NCBI RefSeq assembly: GCF_900660745.1
Contig: NZ_LR215048.1
Span: forward strand, 1,116,001-1,180,000
DNA: 64,000 nt
DNA from: Haploplasma axanthum
GTDB taxonomy: Bacteria > Bacillota_I > Bacilli_A > Acholeplasmatales > Acholeplasmataceae
Direction: 5' to 3'
Below are positions 46,504 to 54,221 of the stretch, one piece after another; position 1 is the first letter of the stretch, and the number at the start of each line of letters is the position of its first letter. The notes below the pieces were generated by a model. That model had not been told where the DNA came from, did no database searches, and worked only from the letters and a program-made list of their open reading frames with translations. The translations under genes and the position numbers were made by a program.

Positions 46504-47400
46504 ATGGAAACACTAAAATTCTATTTATTATATGTACCGCTTGGAGTTATAGCAACAATACTATTAGTTAAATATTTAAAGAATAAAACAAATGAGCAAA
46601 GATATCGGTTTTTAATATACTTATCAATTGCTGCACTTCTTTTACATCTTATAAAACCATTCTTTTTTCCGTATAATACGGAAGTTTATTCTGAGAATGG
46701 AATATTAATTATTAGTAAACCAAGTATTTATCGAAAAATGACTTTTGAGAATATTTGTGCTGTATCAGCACTAGTTTATTTACCATTATTACTATTAAAG
46801 AAAAAAATACCATTAGATTATATTGCAACTATTGGATTAATTGGTGGGTTTGCAGCATTTATGTATCCAACAGAAGTAATTCTTGGAATGTTTGATAGTA
46901 TGAAAGTAACATATAAATTAGGTTTATTCAGTTTTGATACAATGAGATTTTATATTGTCCATTATTTAATATTTATAATTCCATTTTTATTACTATATTA
47001 TAAGTTACATACGTTTGAACTTAAAAGAGCAATCTTTTTACCAATTTCAATTTTAGTAATGTTAACAATGGTTTATGTCAATGAATTGATTTTAGACAAG
47101 TTTGGTTGGTTAGATGCTGTTCATGAGTATGCTGGAAGAGATATTTTCTTAGATAGTAATATTCGTAACTCATCGTTTGTTTTTGGTATTTCAGATGGAT
47201 TTAAAAAGATTGGTATTATAATTGATATGCTTGTTCCTAAATTTATGAAAGAGCCTTATTATATACCTGTTTTATGGATTACTATACCTGCTTTTGTTTA
47301 TGGACCTTTATTATATTTTGGTTTTGAATATGCAACAGATAGGAAAAAAGCTGTTTTAGAATTAAAAACTCTTTTTAAAAAGAGCGAAAACACAAAATAG
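46504..47400 (+). CDS. Integral membrane protein, YwaF-like (TIGR02206 type)
   Basis: A 298-aa protein with seven to eight predicted membrane helices and short loops. The layout and the late HYLIFIIPFLLLYYKL segment resemble the YwaF/TIGR02206 family, whose function is unknown. It has no enzyme motif I can point to. It stands between rpmG and the LytTR regulator, each with its own signals, so no operon partner is evident. The family name is moderate in certainty. Confidence 0.6.
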   Translation: METLKFYLLYVPLGVIATILLVKYLKNKTNEQRYRFLIYLSIAALLLHLIKPFFFPYNTEVYSENGILIISKPSIYRKMTFENICAVSALVYLPLLLLKKKIPLDYIATIGLIGGFAAFMYPTEVILGMFDSMKVTYKLGLFSFDTMRFYIVHYLIFIIPFLLLYYKLHTFELKRAIFLPISILVMLTMVYVNELILDKFGWLDAVHEYAGRDIFLDSNIRNSSFVFGISDGFKKIGIIIDMLVPKFMKEPYYIPVLWITIPAFVYGPLLYFGFEYATDRKKAVLELKTLFKKSENTK

Positions 47401-47420
47401 TAACAAAATAAGATAATAAT

Positions 47421-47449
47421 TTGACATTATCACCCAAATATATGATAAT
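47421..47449 (+). promoter_or_regulatory. Promoter of the LytTR gene
   Basis: A perfect TTGACA (47421-47426), a 17-base spacer and GATAAT (47444-47449). Confidence 0.7.
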
Positions 47450-47495
47450 AGTTATACACTTTTGTTTCTAAATCTGATATTCGGGGTGATTTAGA

Positions 47496-47945
47496 TTGAA
47501 AATTAAGATTTTACTTAATGATGAAAAAAAAGAATTGTATGAGAAAAAATTAATAGAAGCTGGTTTTATAATTTCAGAAGAAGCTACAGTTTTTTTAGTT
47601 GAAGAAGATTTTAAAACTAATTATTTAATTGTTAAAGATGAAGATAATTTCTATATGAAATTAAATAAAGATGATATTATCTGTTTTGAAAGTTTTGGAC
47701 ATAATATTATTTGCGAGATAATGGATAAAAAATATCGTGCAAAAGAAAAACTCTATCAATTAGAATCAATGTTTGATCAAACTGAATTTATTAGAATAAG
47801 TAATTCAGTAATTGTCAATATAAATTATATTGAGAAAATTATTCCATCAATAGGGATGAAATTTAAATTAAAACTAAAAAATGGGAAAACAGTTGAAGTA
47901 ACTAGAAACTATTATTATAAATTTAAAGAAACAATTGGAATTTAA
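47496..47945 (+). CDS. LytTR-domain DNA-binding regulator
   Basis: A 149-aa protein whose C-terminal 95 residues are a LytTR DNA-binding domain (DDIICFESFGHNIICEI; FIRISNSVIVNINYIEKI; LKNGKTVEVTRNYYYKFKE). The N-terminal 50 residues are short and do not form a response-regulator receiver, so it is not part of a usual two-component pair. The start is TTG, with GGGGTGA seven bases upstream. It precedes the membrane protein and the dlt-like genes and may control them. Confidence 0.88.
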   Translation: MKIKILLNDEKKELYEKKLIEAGFIISEEATVFLVEEDFKTNYLIVKDEDNFYMKLNKDDIICFESFGHNIICEIMDKKYRAKEKLYQLESMFDQTEFIRISNSVIVNINYIEKIIPSIGMKFKLKLKNGKTVEVTRNYYYKFKETIGI

Positions 47946-48072: not shown

Positions 48073-48738
48073 TTGAAAAACTATGTTTTTATTGTTTTAG
48101 GAATAGTAATAGGAATTGTTGCTTTGTTATCAGTTATTTATTTTTATGTTTATCGTATTTTAATTAATAGACAGTTTAAATATAAAAGAAGATATCGATT
48201 AATGAGACCAATTCATGCTGTCTATCTCTTTTTTATTATTTTTAGTTTGTCAGGATTTTCATATATAGCTTTTAGTGGACCAAGTAATCTTTTTCAAAAT
48301 AAAAGTTTAAACTATAAAATATACGATAAAGATGATGTTGCAGTTTCAGATATAATGAAATTATATAGCGAAAACATTCAAGAAAAATCAGTAATTCCAG
48401 GATACGAAATGGTCTATGAAGAATTTGAAGATCTATCAGTCTTAATATATGTTGAAGAGTCCGGTGATAATTTTGAATTCTTAAGCTTTCTAATATTCAC
48501 AGAATACACTGCTGAGTCACATGGTGATAAAGTTCGAATTGAAATATTTTATGAAGAAAAAGAAAGCTATTTTAATGATGACGATGTAGTCAATGACTAT
48601 AGTGATATTTTTATAATAAAAGGCTATATTAGTGAGGAATTAAATGCATATTTAGTTTATGGAATATATGAAGAAATTGATGGTCAATATCTTCAAGTTA
48701 CTGAGATTGTTTTACCAATACAAATTAGATTTGAATAA
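48073..48738 (+). CDS. Membrane protein with outside domain, unknown
   Basis: A 221-aa protein with two membrane helices at about residues 4-28 and 49-68, and an acidic extracytoplasmic region after that (YDKDDVAVSDIMKLYSENIQ onward). I do not recognise a family. The start is TTG with GAGGTG before it. It comes 50 bases before the MBOAT gene, so it could be the first gene of the dlt-like operon or a partner of the LytTR regulator. Confidence 0.65.
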   Translation: MKNYVFIVLGIVIGIVALLSVIYFYVYRILINRQFKYKRRYRLMRPIHAVYLFFIIFSLSGFSYIAFSGPSNLFQNKSLNYKIYDKDDVAVSDIMKLYSENIQEKSVIPGYEMVYEEFEDLSVLIYVEESGDNFEFLSFLIFTEYTAESHGDKVRIEIFYEEKESYFNDDDVVNDYSDIFIIKGYISEELNAYLVYGIYEEIDGQYLQVTEIVLPIQIRFE

Positions 48739-48788: not shown

Positions 48789-50342
48789 ATGAATGAAGTT
48801 TTATTAATATATGGTATTGTCCTTTTAATATCAGTAATTGCTTACTATTTGATACCTTTAAAGTATCGATATATAGTATTACTGGTTTTTAGTTTGGCAT
48901 TTTCAATTATTGTGAGCAAAATATTAATTCTTTTTTTAATAGGAACAGCAACAACAATCTATCTAGGAGCCAGATTAATAAAGAAAAATATCGATACATA
49001 TAAAGAAAAAGAAGAAATAACACAAGAAGAGAAGAATAGAGTCAAAAAGATTAATAAAAGGATTGTAACTATAGTTGTTATAGTTAATATATTTATTTTA
49101 GGTTTTTTAAAGTATTATTTATTTTTTAGAGGAAACTTTAATGGATTATTTTCAATCTTAGGAACTAGTTTTAGATTACCATATTTGAAACTTTTACTAC
49201 CGATTGGAATATCGTTTTATACATTACAGGGGATTGGATATGTAGTAGACGTTTATAGAGAAAAATACGAAGCTCAAAAATCATTTTTAAAAGTGCTTTT
49301 ATTTGTATCATTCTTTCCTTCAATATTAGAAGGACCGATAAGTAGATATGATCAAGTAAGTGATTCACTTTTTAATGGAAATAAAGCTAATTATCAAAGG
49401 ATAATGTTAGGGTTACAAAGATTAATATGGGGATTATTTAAGAAATTAATTGTTGCCGATCGAGTATACCTTTTAGTTAAGACTGTTGGTGATAATCCAA
49501 GAGAATATAGTGGAATTGCGAGTTTATTGTTCATTATTGGTTATACAATTCAACTTTATGCAGATTTTTCAGGTTTTATGGATATTGCATTAGGTAGTGC
49601 AGAATTATTTGGAGTGAAATTACCTGAAAATTTCAAACAACCATTCTTTTCAAAATCAGTTCAGGAGTTTTGGAGAAGATGGCATATTACACTTGGTACT
49701 TGGCTAAAAGACTATGTTTTTTATCCAATAGCACTATCGCCAAAAATTAATAAATTAGCATCTAAGATTAGAAAGAAATGGAAAAACCATTTCACTAAAA
49801 TGTTGCCAACTATTATAGCACTATTTGTTTTATGGATTTGTAATGGATTATGGCATGGTCCGGAATGGAAATATATATTTTATGGAATTTATTACTTCAT
49901 CTTAATATTCTTAGGAATGATGATGGAACCAATATTTAGGAAGGTCCACAAGAAACTAAATATAAATACTAAGGCAATATGGTATAGAGTATTTCAAATT
50001 ATTAGAACTTTAATTTTAGTTAACATTGGAATGACAATCTTTGGAGCGAAGAATCTTAATGATGCATTCTATATCTTAACTTCAGTATTTAAACCATATA
50101 ATGGTTCAATATTTGCTTTAGGTTTAGATGGATATGAATTTGTAATTTTATTAATAGGTGTTGGTTTAATATTTATAATGAGTTATTTTAATGAAAAGAA
50201 TATTAATTTGTTTAATGTGATTGCTTCAAAACCAATTTATTATCGATGGGTTATATATCAAGCAGTTATTATCTTTATGGTTATTTTTGGTGCGTACGGT
50301 GATGATTACGCTAAAGTACCATTTATTTATGCCGAGTTTTAG
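48789..50342 (+). CDS. dltB: MBOAT acyltransferase, DltB-like
   Basis: A 517-aa membrane-bound O-acyltransferase with about ten to twelve helices. Motifs are LPIGISFYTLQGIGYVVDVYR, FFPSILEGPISRYDQV, EFWRRWHITLGTWLKDYVFYP and CNGLWHGPEW with the catalytic His at residue 356. In the DltB case it moves an aminoacyl group from the carrier protein across the membrane onto a glycerol- or lipid-linked polymer. AlgI-type O-acetylation is the alternative; the carrier and adenylation genes downstream favour DltB. GGTGGGG lies before the ATG. The next gene follows after 11 bases. Confidence 0.85.
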   Translation: MNEVLLIYGIVLLISVIAYYLIPLKYRYIVLLVFSLAFSIIVSKILILFLIGTATTIYLGARLIKKNIDTYKEKEEITQEEKNRVKKINKRIVTIVVIVNIFILGFLKYYLFFRGNFNGLFSILGTSFRLPYLKLLLPIGISFYTLQGIGYVVDVYREKYEAQKSFLKVLLFVSFFPSILEGPISRYDQVSDSLFNGNKANYQRIMLGLQRLIWGLFKKLIVADRVYLLVKTVGDNPREYSGIASLLFIIGYTIQLYADFSGFMDIALGSAELFGVKLPENFKQPFFSKSVQEFWRRWHITLGTWLKDYVFYPIALSPKINKLASKIRKKWKNHFTKMLPTIIALFVLWICNGLWHGPEWKYIFYGIYYFILIFLGMMMEPIFRKVHKKLNINTKAIWYRVFQIIRTLILVNIGMTIFGAKNLNDAFYILTSVFKPYNGSIFALGLDGYEFVILLIGVGLIFIMSYFNEKNINLFNVIASKPIYYRWVIYQAVIIFMVIFGAYGDDYAKVPFIYAEF

Positions 50343-50353
50343 GAGGGAAGACT

Positions 50354-51337
50354 ATGAAAAATATATTATTGATTAGGATATTAAAAAGCATTTGTTTTTT
50401 TAGTATTTTCATATTAATTACTGTTTTTATATCAAGATCATTTTCAACTAGAAAAGAAGCATACGAATTATCTTCAAGAAGTAGAAGAGCATCTCAAGTC
50501 TTTAATGAACCTAATGATTCATTAGATGTAATAATTGTTGGTCATAGTGGTGTTTATACTGGATATTCACCAATGGAAGCATATAAAGAATATGGATTTA
50601 CATCTTATTCATTGTCTCAAGCAGTTCAAAAACCATGGGAATCATATAATTATTTAGTTGATGTTTTAAAGACCCAAAAACCAAAAGTAATTGTTTTTGA
50701 AGTTGATCAACTATTTTATGATAAAATCAACTATCAAGCACATGGTGCTGTAGTTAAAGCAGCTGATGCATTATTCCCAATTGTTAGTAATCACATACTT
50801 TGGAAAAAATTCTTTGGTAAAAAATTTAATCCTTTAAAAGAACGTAGTTATACGAAAGGATATACAATTGATTATCATGTTAATCCATATAAGGGACCAT
50901 ATGAATTGAAGGAAACTGATAAAGTTTATAAAATTAAAAAGCCTCATTATCTCTATATGAAGAAAGTTGCTGAACTTTGTAAGAATAATGATATACCGCT
51001 TGTTCTTTTAGAGATGCCATCAAAAATCAGATGGGATTATTCAAAATATAATGCTGTTAAAAAGTTTGCAGATGAAAGAAATATTCGATTTGTTGATTCT
51101 AATCAAAGAATAAAAGAGTTTAATTTTGATTGGAAAAATGATACTAGGGATCGAGGAGATCATTTAAATCATTACGGAGCTGTAAAATTCACTAAGTTTT
51201 TTGCTAAATATTTAACTGATGAATTTGATTTGCAAAATAAAAAAGATGATTCAAAATATCAACATTGGAATAATGATCTTTTAATATATGAAAATATGGT
51301 TGAGGACATAAAAAATGATAAATACAAGAATAAATAA
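50354..51337 (+). CDS. dltD: SGNH-fold DltD/AlgJ-like membrane-anchored protein
   Basis: A 327-aa protein with one N-terminal membrane helix (residues 7-28) and an outside SGNH-hydrolase-like domain. Block I is VGHSGVYTG with Ser65 as candidate nucleophile; the late block is D266-R-G-D-H270-L-N. DltD helps the MBOAT enzyme deliver amino acids to teichoic acids. It is shorter than typical DltD (about 400 aa), so an AlgJ/AlgX-like relation is possible. It overlaps the adenylation gene by 23 bases. Confidence 0.68.
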   Translation: MKNILLIRILKSICFFSIFILITVFISRSFSTRKEAYELSSRSRRASQVFNEPNDSLDVIIVGHSGVYTGYSPMEAYKEYGFTSYSLSQAVQKPWESYNYLVDVLKTQKPKVIVFEVDQLFYDKINYQAHGAVVKAADALFPIVSNHILWKKFFGKKFNPLKERSYTKGYTIDYHVNPYKGPYELKETDKVYKIKKPHYLYMKKVAELCKNNDIPLVLLEMPSKIRWDYSKYNAVKKFADERNIRFVDSNQRIKEFNFDWKNDTRDRGDHLNHYGAVKFTKFFAKYLTDEFDLQNKKDDSKYQHWNNDLLIYENMVEDIKNDKYKNK

Positions 51338-52841
51338 CGTATTAGAATACTTAGAAAAAAGTGCTAGTAAATATCCTTCAAAAATAGCTTTTTCTGATGA
51401 TAAAAATTCGATTAGCTACGAAGAATTAGTTTTAAAAGCTAAGATAGTTGGAAGTGCGATTGCTGAATATGGTTTAAAACAAAAACCAATCGGAGTAATA
51501 AATGAAAAAAGTGTTGAAACAATTATTGTTTTTATGGGAATAATCTATTCAGGTAATTTTTATGCACTCATTAATCCTGAACATCCAATCGATAGAAAAA
51601 ATAAAATTATTGAAACATTAGATAATCCATTCTTTGTTTTATCTAAAAAATATGAAAAACAAATTGATAGTGGTTTAAACATTAATAAATATTTAAGTAT
51701 TGAAGAATTACTAGAAAAGACAACAATAAACGAATTAGAACTTTTAAATATTAGAAAGAATCATATTGATATTGATCCGTTGTATTCTATGTTTACATCT
51801 GGATCAACTGGTGAACCTAAAGGAATCGTTGTAAGTCACAGATCAGTAATCGATTTTATTGAAGTATTTGTTAGCGAATTTGAATTTACTAAAGATGATA
51901 TAATAGGAAATCAAGCACCATTTGATTTTGATGTATCTGTTAAAGATATTTATACAACATTAAAAACAGGAGCTACAATGCAAATAATCCCTAAACAAAA
52001 GTTTTCATTTCCAACACTATTATTAGATTTTCTTTGTGAGCGAGAAGTGACAACATTAATTTGGGCAGTATCAGCATTATGCATAATTCCTGTATTTAAT
52101 GGATTTCAATATAAAATACCTTCTAAAATAAATAAAATCCTTTTTAGCGGTGAATTAATGCCAATTAAACATTTAAATGAATGGAAGAAACATCTACCAG
52201 ACGCTTTATATGTAAATCTTTATGGACCAACTGAGATTACTTGTAATTGTACTTTTTATACGCTACCTCAAGGTATCTATGAAAAAGAGTCTATGCCAAT
52301 TGGAAAACCTTTTTTAAATGAAAGAGTATTTTTATTAGATGATAATAATGAGTTAATTGAAGATGCGAATAAACAAGGAGAAATATGTGTTTCAGGTACA
52401 GCATTATCTTTAGGATATTATAATAATAAAACCGAGACAGAAAAAGCTTTTGTTCAAAATCCTTTAAATAAATATTATAATGAGTTAATTTATCGAACAG
52501 GAGATCTTGGATTTTATGGTAATGATAAGGAATTATACTTTAGTTCAAGGAAAGATTTCCAAGTTAAACATATGGGGCATCGAATTGAATTAACTGAAAT
52601 TGATTCAGCGTTTTTGAAAATTGACAATATAACAAGAGTAGCAACAATTTATGACAAAGAGAATAAAAGTATTATTTCATTCTATCAAGGTGAGTATGAA
52701 AGTGCTGAAATAGTTAAGAAACTTAGAGAATTACTTCCAAAATATATGATTCCTACGAAACTGATTAAAGTTCTTAACATACCACTCACAGATAATGGGA
52801 AAGTAAATAGAAAGAAATTAATGGAGGAATACTATGAATAA
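51315..52841 (+). CDS. dltA: DltA-like amino-acid adenylating ligase
   Basis: A 508-aa AMP-forming ligase that would activate an amino acid and load it onto the carrier protein encoded two genes on. Core motifs: TSGSTGEPKG (residues 161-170), NQAPFDFDVSV with the amine-binding Asp at 206, YGPTEITC, and YRTGDLG; the C-terminal Lys lies in NGKVNRKKL. The position that is Cys in known DltA (FLFCGE) and selects D-Ala is Ser278 here (ILFSGE). The amino acid used may therefore not be D-Ala. ATG 51315 follows GAGG by nine bases. Confidence 0.82.
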   Translation: MINTRINNVLEYLEKSASKYPSKIAFSDDKNSISYEELVLKAKIVGSAIAEYGLKQKPIGVINEKSVETIIVFMGIIYSGNFYALINPEHPIDRKNKIIETLDNPFFVLSKKYEKQIDSGLNINKYLSIEELLEKTTINELELLNIRKNHIDIDPLYSMFTSGSTGEPKGIVVSHRSVIDFIEVFVSEFEFTKDDIIGNQAPFDFDVSVKDIYTTLKTGATMQIIPKQKFSFPTLLLDFLCEREVTTLIWAVSALCIIPVFNGFQYKIPSKINKILFSGELMPIKHLNEWKKHLPDALYVNLYGPTEITCNCTFYTLPQGIYEKESMPIGKPFLNERVFLLDDNNELIEDANKQGEICVSGTALSLGYYNNKTETEKAFVQNPLNKYYNELIYRTGDLGFYGNDKELYFSSRKDFQVKHMGHRIELTEIDSAFLKIDNITRVATIYDKENKSIISFYQGEYESAEIVKKLRELLPKYMIPTKLIKVLNIPLTDNGKVNRKKLMEEYYE

Positions 52842-53982
52842 TAATATAAAAACACCAGCATTTCTTTTTGATATTGATAAACTTAGAAAAAGAGTTAATG
52901 ATTTAAATGAGTTAGCAAAGAAAACAAAAATTAATCTTTGTTATGCGATAAAAGCAAACCCTTTCCTAATTAGTTATTTAAAAGATTATATTCATTCATT
53001 TGAAGTATGTTCACCAGGTGAGTTTAGAATTTGTGAGAAATTAAACATTAAACCAGAACAGATTGTTTTATCAGGTGTTAATAAAGAGTATAATGATATC
53101 GAAAGAATTGTTAATTTAAATGGCACAAAAACATTATATACAATTGAATCAGAAGAACACTTGAAGTTCTTAAATGATTTGGCAAATAAGAATGGTATTA
53201 AACTACCAGTTATCATTAGGTTAACAAGTGGTAATCAATTCGGTGTTGACATAACAATACTTGAAAATATAATTGAAAAACGTAATGACTATTCATTAGA
53301 GATTAAAGGCATTCAATTTTACTCAGGTACTCAAAAGAAGAAAATTGAAGTGATTAATCACGAATTAAATGAATTAAAATCATTAATAAATCTTTTGAGA
53401 GATAAATATAACTATGAAACAAAAGTTTTAGAATATGGACCAGGACTTGCTGTTAACTATTTTTATAATGATGGGCAACCAGTAAGTTATCAAAATTATG
53501 AAGAATTAATTGATGCTATTGAAAAAGTTGGTTTTAAATGTGAAATCACCCTTGAACTTGGAAGATATATTGCTTATGAGTGTGGTGAATACATAACTAA
53601 AGTTGTTGATATAAAAAAGAATTCAGGCATTAATTATGCAATAGTTGATGGTGGTATTAATCATTTGAATTATTATGGACAAACAATGGCAATGAAAATT
53701 CCAAATTTTGAACATATAAAAACAAATAAAATCAATAAAGAAGATTCTTATACAATTTGTGGTTCGTTATGTACAGTTTCAGACGTTTTAGTTAGAAATT
53801 TGACACTTAATACTCTTAATATCGGAGATACGCTGATATTTAAAAATACTGGTGCATATTCAATAACAGAAGGAATCTATTTGTTCTTGAGTCGTGATAT
53901 GCCAAGAATATATGTTAAAGAAAATAAAAATGTAACTTTAGTTAGAGATTTTATTGAGACAAATCAATTTAATACAATATAA
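52834..53982 (+). CDS. Fold-III PLP enzyme, ornithine/DAP-decarboxylase-like
   Basis: A 382-aa PLP enzyme with the alanine-racemase-like barrel and C-terminal beta domain of LysA/ODC. The PLP Lys is K40 in CYAIKANP; C313 and D317 in CGSLCTVSDVL match the catalytic Cys and Asp of the group; YGPGLAVNYF and ELGRYIAYE match the phosphate-binding and Arg motifs. The usual HFHxGS stretch reads QFYSGT (Y163 for the PLP-stacking His), as in relatives that work with carrier-linked substrates. It could be a decarboxylase or a racemase; neither is proven. It overlaps dltA by eight bases and precedes dltC by 17. Confidence 0.75.
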   Translation: MNNNIKTPAFLFDIDKLRKRVNDLNELAKKTKINLCYAIKANPFLISYLKDYIHSFEVCSPGEFRICEKLNIKPEQIVLSGVNKEYNDIERIVNLNGTKTLYTIESEEHLKFLNDLANKNGIKLPVIIRLTSGNQFGVDITILENIIEKRNDYSLEIKGIQFYSGTQKKKIEVINHELNELKSLINLLRDKYNYETKVLEYGPGLAVNYFYNDGQPVSYQNYEELIDAIEKVGFKCEITLELGRYIAYECGEYITKVVDIKKNSGINYAIVDGGINHLNYYGQTMAMKIPNFEHIKTNKINKEDSYTICGSLCTVSDVLVRNLTLNTLNIGDTLIFKNTGAYSITEGIYLFLSRDMPRIYVKENKNVTLVRDFIETNQFNTI

Positions 53983-53999
53983 AAGAAAGGAATAAAATC

Positions 54000-54221
54000 A
54001 TGGAAAAATTACTTAATATATTAAATGAAATTAAACCGGATATTGACTTTGAAACAAATGAAGAATTAATTGATGCTGGAATATTAGAATCATTAGACAT
54101 TATGCAAATAGTAGCTGAAATTAGTGATCAATTTGATGTTCAATTATCACCTTCAGATATTATCCCAGATAATTTTAATTCTGCAAAAGAATTATGGGCA
54201 ATGATTGAAAGATTAAAGTAA
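54000..54221 (+). CDS. dltC: DltC-like aminoacyl carrier protein
   Basis: A 73-aa carrier protein. The phosphopantetheine attachment is Ser31 in GILESLDIMQIV, followed by the QFDVQLSPSDIIPDNF helix-loop typical of DltC and other ACPs. It should carry the aminoacyl group from the adenylation enzyme to the MBOAT protein. AAGGAA precedes its ATG. A Sfp-type transferase in this window (60760) could activate it. It ends the operon before a strong terminator. Confidence 0.85.
   Translation: MEKLLNILNEIKPDIDFETNEELIDAGILESLDIMQIVAEISDQFDVQLSPSDIIPDNFNSAKELWAMIERLK

Follow-up and report, generated by a model that had tools for sequence, protein, structure and literature searches.

A Dlt-Like Gene Cassette in Haploplasma axanthum That May Make an Omega-Aminoacyl Group on Its Own Carrier Protein and Pass It to the Cell Surface

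Introduction

How would a bacterium that lacks a cell wall use a set of genes resembling the dlt operon, and why would a decarboxylase-like gene lie within that set? This question is raised by five genes in a 64,000-nucleotide stretch of the Haploplasma axanthum genome (NZ_LR215048.1, positions 1,116,001 to 1,180,000), hereafter the window, which lies within a single 1.88 Mb contig. The genes, here called the cassette, encode a membrane-bound O-acyltransferase (MBOAT), an SGNH-fold protein, an amino-acid adenylation enzyme, a pyridoxal 5'-phosphate (PLP) enzyme, and a carrier protein. D-alanylation of teichoic acids determines what charge the surface of Gram-positive bacteria carries and how sensitive they are to cationic peptides, and a first reading made from the sequence alone (the original prediction) had taken the cassette for a variant dlt operon that handles something other than plain D-alanine (D-Ala). 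On balance, we favor the reading that the cassette loads an acidic amino acid, decarboxylates it on the carrier, and exports the resulting omega-aminoacyl group to the cell surface.

The Cassette and Its Conservation

The five genes lie on one strand at positions 48789-54221 of the window, with successive spacings of +11, -23, -8, and +17 bp, and comprise the following features.

48789..50342, plus strand: MBOAT (DltB-like) acyltransferase, 517 residues (PF03062, E 1e-18)
50322..50339, plus strand: C-terminal hexapeptide FIYAEF of the MBOAT, a putative acyl-shuttle motif (FXYXXF, Tyr514); a tyrosine hexapeptide is present in the orthologues
50354..51337, plus strand: membrane-anchored SGNH-fold protein, 327 residues, assigned from predicted structure and alignment
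51315..52841, plus strand: stand-alone amino-acid adenylation enzyme, 508 residues (PF00501, E 2e-53)
52834..53982, plus strand: fold-III PLP decarboxylase of the BtrK/SbnH/LysA branch, 382 residues (PF02784 and PF00278)
53314..53331, plus strand: QFYSGT of the PLP enzyme (residues 161-166), aligning with HVYTGT of BtrK
53767..53784, plus strand: LCTVSD of the PLP enzyme, with the catalytic-type Cys313 and Asp317 (LCTPED in BtrK)
54000..54221, plus strand: DltC-like carrier protein, 73 residues (PF00550)

MBOAT, AMP-binding, Orn_Arg_deC_N plus Orn_DAP_Arg_deC, and PP-binding domains were found by Pfam, and the second gene gave no family match. In a sample of 392 same-phylum genomes, the PLP enzyme has counterparts 40-49% identical in 14 further genomes of the same class, making 15 carrier genomes with that of the window. 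The adenylation enzyme, carrier, and MBOAT are encoded near the PLP gene in all 14, and an SGNH homologue was detected by BLAST in 13; in the remaining one (L052) the SGNH profile matched a 324-residue frame. The gene order and coordinates given in the original prediction proved exact, and the same five-gene set recurs in many distant genomes, far beyond chance.

A wider scan was made of named genomes. With a single protein as query, no match was found in the contigs of these genomes, whereas an alignment-based scan gave matches, of which 80 loci out of 568 relatives were listed and are considered here. They belong mostly to Lachnospiraceae, other Clostridia, and Erysipelotrichaceae; one comes from a bin that carries the label Treponema. 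Anaerosacchariphilus polymeriproducens and Lacrimispora algidixylanolytica are among the carriers of the cassette. Among these listed matches, 43 loci have 4.5 kb or more on each side, and 35 of them contain all five genes; in 68 of 72, the PLP gene immediately follows the adenylation gene. The order seen most often is adenylation-PLP-carrier-MBOAT-SGNH (37 loci), followed by that of the window, MBOAT-SGNH-adenylation-PLP-carrier (13 loci). Two blocks thus exchange positions, as would be expected if one made the group and the other transferred it. The cassette is no speciality of wall-less cells, being widespread in gut Clostridia and Erysipelotrichia. No published account of it was found in our searches of open-licence papers.

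Several loci depart from this layout. At L071, L077, and L093 the adenylation-PLP-carrier block occurs without MBOAT-SGNH, among genes for repeated GNAT-like proteins of about 285 residues, for polysaccharide-type (WcbI-like) proteins, and for AMP-ligases; the aminoacyl carrier may be put to another use in these clusters. At L073, L084, and L100 the block stands alone among housekeeping-looking neighbors, with no MBOAT-SGNH within the stretch. One locus (L096:9525-13514) has a single MBOAT gene followed by four tandem SGNH paralogues, as if serving several acceptors. In L046 (G435) and L048 (G385) the MBOAT gene is broken by stops or a split frame with the rest of the cassette intact, save that the PLP gene of L046 is likewise interrupted; these breaks reflect decay or sequencing error.

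The PLP Enzyme

Lys40, Cys313, and Asp317, the residues that had suggested a decarboxylase, are present and are invariant in all 93 PLP-enzyme homologues. Fold III, a Schiff-base lysine, a cysteine and an aspartate from the C-terminal domain, and adjacent carrier and adenylation genes were all found, as in a BtrK-like enzyme. In a PDB search with a profile of 14 orthologues, BtrK scored 187 bits, SbnH 177, and LysA 165. The predicted structure (predicted local distance difference test score, pLDDT, 90.2) has BtrK (7ru7) as its best fold match, with Z 38.6 and a root-mean-square deviation of 2.6 over 374 residues, a match tied within 1 with several LysA structures. The analogy with BtrK, on which the original prediction relied, is thus well placed, as BtrK ranks first among solved relatives by profile and shares first place by fold. 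Relatives of the BtrK/SbnH type act as decarboxylases on amino acids that are bound to a carrier or to citrate (PMC7857480).

The motifs agree with this placement. QFYSGT aligns with HVYTGT of BtrK and HCHIGS of Aquifex LysA, and LCTVSD aligns with LCTPED and ICETGD of the same two enzymes. QFYSGT had been singled out as a deviation from the decarboxylase pattern; it is indeed present, but it is normal for the branch, since a Tyr or Phe precedes [STVA]-G-T-Q throughout the orthologues and BtrK itself reads HVYTGTQ.

The enzyme scored 170.5 bits against the LysA model TIGR01048, below its cut-off of 297.9, and 175 of the 478 bits required by its top NCBIfam model, TIGR03099. In a phylogenetic tree, the cassette PLP enzymes all fall on one side of a branch (99/97), and LysA forms a separate clade (100/100). 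Furthermore, a true LysA is encoded elsewhere in five of the 15 carrier genomes, and in the remaining ten no match reaches the cut-off. The scores below cut-off, the clade of its own, and the separate LysA in five carriers together mark the PLP enzyme as a distinct subfamily. Of the two kinds of product named in the original prediction, a decarboxylated or a racemised amino acid, the first has specific support; racemisation found none.

Plasmid-borne relatives were considered as cassette members and rejected, as their loci serve different pathways: a siderophore locus of the SbnH type, and acyl-carrier clusters that include ketosynthase-type genes. Two carrier genomes encode a second PLP homologue (L149, L150), deep-branching, away from the cassette, and nearest to FslC/LysA models.

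The Adenylation Enzyme and Its Substrate

The adenylation enzyme scored 279.9 bits against the DltA model TIGR01734, which requires 559.85, and 289 of 317 bits against general nonribosomal peptide synthetase (NRPS) domains, and is about equally far from DltA and from these; against TIGR03098 it reached 167 of 592 bits. Its pocket was compared with that of GrsA by hand-mapping positions 235, 236, 239, 301, 322, 330, 331, and 517 through conserved motifs. The corresponding residues, Asp206, Val207, Lys210, Ser278, Leu302 (Leu/Val/Ile), Cys310, Asn311, and Lys496, are near-invariant (86 of 88). A lysine at position 239 presumably reads the side-chain carboxylate of glutamate in the surfactin Glu module. 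Comparison of this invariant pocket makes an acidic amino acid the likely substrate. In an alignment with L. crispatus DltA, the positions of the D-Ala determinants Leu198 and Cys269, which contact D-Ala in DltA (PMC11253843), are occupied by Val207 and Ser278. The loss of this pocket agrees with the proposal that the product is something other than plain D-Ala, as does the host genome, which encodes no alanine racemase; its only other Ala_racemase_N match is a 204-residue YggS protein.

In VinN, by which methylaspartate is activated at its side-chain carboxyl, positions 236 and 301 are enlarged, and a beta-Phe variant of TycA carries A236V (PMC11253843). The VinN-type combination of a bulky residue at 236 and Ser at 301 is present in the cassette enzyme (Val and Ser, both invariant, at hand-mapped positions). 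Activation of the side-chain carboxyl is favored because an alpha-decarboxylase is present.

The Carrier, the MBOAT, and the SGNH Protein

The phosphopantetheine-type Ser31 of the carrier is invariant among homologues, and one AcpS-type phosphopantetheinyl transferase is encoded in the host genome. The best solved relatives of the carrier are D-alanyl carrier proteins; its scores remain below the cut-offs of the DltC models (36.7 of 68 bits for NF003464 and 22.4 of 52 for TIGR01688). The MBOAT similarly has only DltB among its solved relatives and scored 164.8 bits against the DltB model TIGR04091, for which the cut-off is 375. Its catalytic-type His356 is kept in at least 97% of 73 homologues, and a tyrosine-bearing C-terminal hexapeptide, FIYAEF in the window, is present in all 73 orthologous MBOATs. 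In PatA, a tail tyrosine accepts the acyl group, which the SGNH partner then takes over, and in the Dlt system the same hexapeptide motif sits on the separate protein DltX (PMC12148441). Judged from sequence, the carrier protein together with the fused shuttle tail would be the clearest structural novelty of the cassette, and no description of this pairing was found in open-licence papers. The putative shuttle tyrosine of the MBOAT and the lysine of the adenylation pocket are both additions to the original prediction.

The assignment of the second gene to the SGNH fold, which no Pfam or NCBIfam model supports, is upheld by its AlphaFold2 structure (pLDDT 88.8, with an N-terminal helix), for which Foldseek returned SGNH/GDSL hydrolases, including DltD (6pfx, 6o93). 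Across 27 orthologues, Ser65 and His270 do not vary; the motif around the serine reads GHS here and GDS in most orthologues.

The Acceptor and the Host Genome

In Merdibacter the cassette follows genes for two CDP-glycerol glycerophosphotransferases (PF04464) of the teichoic-acid (TagF-like) type, and proteins of the LtaS-type sulfatase family (PF00884) are encoded in 14 of the 15 carrier genomes. These findings make a teichoic-type polymer or glycerophosphoglycolipid a plausible acceptor, in the wall-less host as well. It had been proposed that the acceptor in such a cell would itself be new; it need not be, as the host genome encodes three LtaS-like proteins of the sulfatase family, all under the LtaS equivalog cut-off. 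In Erysipelothrix-type genomes, a two-component system lies downstream of the cassette.

The host was taken to lack a wall, in agreement with the absence of any penicillin-binding transpeptidase (PF00905) from its genome. The PLP gene is found in neither congener of the sample. A search within the same family returned matches of only about 23-31% identity, LysA-like where examined, and the cassette was thus probably gained by transfer.

Scans for promoters and terminators at the cassette gave signals no better than chance. A 221-residue protein encoded just upstream (48073-48738) has no counterpart adjoining other cassettes and for this reason was excluded from the parts. Further upstream, at 46504-47945 of the window, lie genes for a TMEM164-family membrane protein and then a LytTR-domain regulator. 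Elsewhere, the host genome encodes a 1283-residue single-module NRPS-like protein (G000:C1:1495490-1499338; L158:1991-5839) with condensation, adenylation, carrier, and terminal reductase domains, the nearest model being the aureusimine synthetase AusA.

Proposed Mechanism and Alternatives

From the observed gene linkage, protein families, folds, catalytic residues, shuttle tail, and pocket, we infer the substrate, the order of steps, the acceptor, and the physiological effect as follows. The adenylation enzyme would activate L-aspartate (most likely, with L-glutamate second) by its side-chain carboxyl and load it onto the 73-residue carrier. With the residue still on the carrier, its free alpha-amino group would be bound by the PLP enzyme as an aldimine and its alpha-carboxyl removed, giving the beta-alanyl- (or gamma-aminobutyryl-) carrier. 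The MBOAT may then carry the omega-aminoacyl group through the membrane and hand it to Tyr514 in its own FIYAEF tail, from which the SGNH protein would transfer it via Ser65 to a hydroxyl group on a polymer or glycolipid of the surface; this acceptor may be a product of the LtaS-like proteins. The effect would resemble that of D-alanylation, that is, positive charge on an anionic surface.

Some observations weigh against this mechanism. In the tree, BtrK, SbnH, and the plasmid relatives lie on the LysA side, outside the cassette clade, so that the function of the PLP enzyme is argued by likeness and context. Moreover, Lys330 and Arg331 of VinN are absent, being replaced by Cys310 and Asn311, and no VinN-type shortened loop was seen in alignments with DltA or LgrA. 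Given these two differences, the substrate may be activated at either carboxyl.

Among the alternatives, the PLP enzyme may act on a free amino acid (aspartate to beta-alanine, or glutamate to gamma-aminobutyric acid, GABA), the finished product then being loaded. LysA and ornithine decarboxylases of this fold do use free amino acids, and the near-constant linkage of the adenylation and PLP genes fits either order. We nevertheless consider this order unlikely, as the nearest solved enzyme, like the nearest pathway precedents, decarboxylates its substrate on the carrier, the pocket lysine suits a substrate that still has its second carboxylate, and the AfcQ precedent does not activate beta-alanine itself (PMC12186527).

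Next comes a Dlt variant that still delivers alanine or a D-amino acid. Here the acid would be attached through its alpha-carboxyl, its side chain would lie on the lysine at position 239, and the PLP enzyme would racemise or beta-decarboxylate it to give an alanyl (perhaps D-alanyl) or D-acidic residue. In Glu domains that activate the alpha-carboxyl, a lysine at this position presumably is the usual reader of the side-chain carboxylate; the racemase and decarboxylase families have a fold in common, with weak similarity to Ala_racemase_N; and the host genome has no other alanine racemase. Set against these points are Cys313, Asp317, and the entire C-terminal domain, which are of the alpha-decarboxylase type, and the D-Ala pocket, which is not kept; in addition, we know of no precedent for beta-decarboxylation in fold III. 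This too appears improbable.

It is more doubtful still that the target of acylation is not a polymer but a small molecule for secretion, a protein, or the head group of a lipid. The three clusters that have the maker block without MBOAT-SGNH (L071, L077, L093) would fit such a role, yet known MBOAT-SGNH pairs modify envelope polymers (PMC12148441), and the TagF-like neighbors in Merdibacter and the LtaS-type-fold sulfatase family in nearly all carriers likewise point to a polymer. Finally, an ordinary lysine-pathway LysA adjoining an ordinary dlt operon, the case that was named at the outset as fatal to the original prediction, is scarcely credible: the match to TIGR01048 speaks for it, but at 170 bits this falls short of the 298 needed, and the separate clades, the true LysA elsewhere in five carriers with none over the cut-off in the rest, and the linkage to the adenylation gene exclude a role as LysA only.

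If on-carrier decarboxylation and export do take place, common gut bacteria would bear a surface omega-amino acid, perhaps beta-alanine or the neuroactive GABA, of which annotation gives no hint. DltD is missing from the carriers examined, and searches for dlt would suggest that they have no such system.

Comparison with Known Systems

The description of the cassette as a variant dlt operon is apt as to likeness and fails as to membership. As in the Dlt system, an adenylation enzyme serves a small carrier, transit is by an MBOAT, and hand-over to a polymer is by an SGNH protein; among solved structures the carrier is nearest DltC and the MBOAT nearest DltB. However, all Dlt cut-offs are missed, the D-Ala pocket is replaced, a PLP decarboxylase is added, and the DltD family (PF04914) is absent, with no match in the 15 carrier genomes and none over the cut-off in the 392 same-phylum genomes. 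Nor does the cassette need a separate DltX, the shuttle tail being part of its MBOAT.

The exosortase-A-associated pair TIGR03098/TIGR03099 likewise joins an adenylating ligase to a fold-III decarboxylase, but both cut-offs are missed and no exosortase context was seen at the cassette. A closer likeness is found in three pathways that combine a stand-alone adenylation enzyme, a carrier, and a PLP decarboxylase, namely BtrJ/BtrI/BtrK, VinN/VinL/VinO, and AfcQ/AfcK/AfcP (VinO, AfcP, and BtrJ being compared by description only). Carrier-bound glutamate is decarboxylated by BtrK in the first (PMC7857480), and carrier-loaded 3-methylaspartate is decarboxylated likewise in the second (PMC11284099). 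In the third, activation of L-aspartate at its side chain and loading are followed by conversion to beta-alanine on the carrier, and free beta-alanine is not activated (PMC12186527). The cassette differs from the Btr and Vin pathways in that its PLP clade is apart from BtrK and the two VinN residues are missing, and from all three in its partners: the product enters a small molecule there, whereas here the block is joined to an MBOAT and an SGNH protein.

These partners recall PatA-PatB/AlgI-type O-acetylation, in which the hexapeptide is similarly fused to the C-terminus of the MBOAT and the SGNH protein is separate. That type uses an acyl-CoA donor and no carrier protein (PMC12148441), whereas a carrier, an adenylation enzyme, and a decarboxylase are all part of the cassette. 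The odds lean slightly toward envelope acylation by MBOAT-SGNH systems having a third form, common among Lachnospiraceae and Erysipelotrichia of the gut and present in a wall-less relative, in which a self-made beta-alanyl or GABA group would be produced by on-carrier decarboxylation and placed on a teichoic acid, lipoglycan, or glycolipid. If so, the two-way split of MBOAT-SGNH systems, a carrier with a separate DltX on the one side and acyl-CoA with a fused tail on the other, would be broken.

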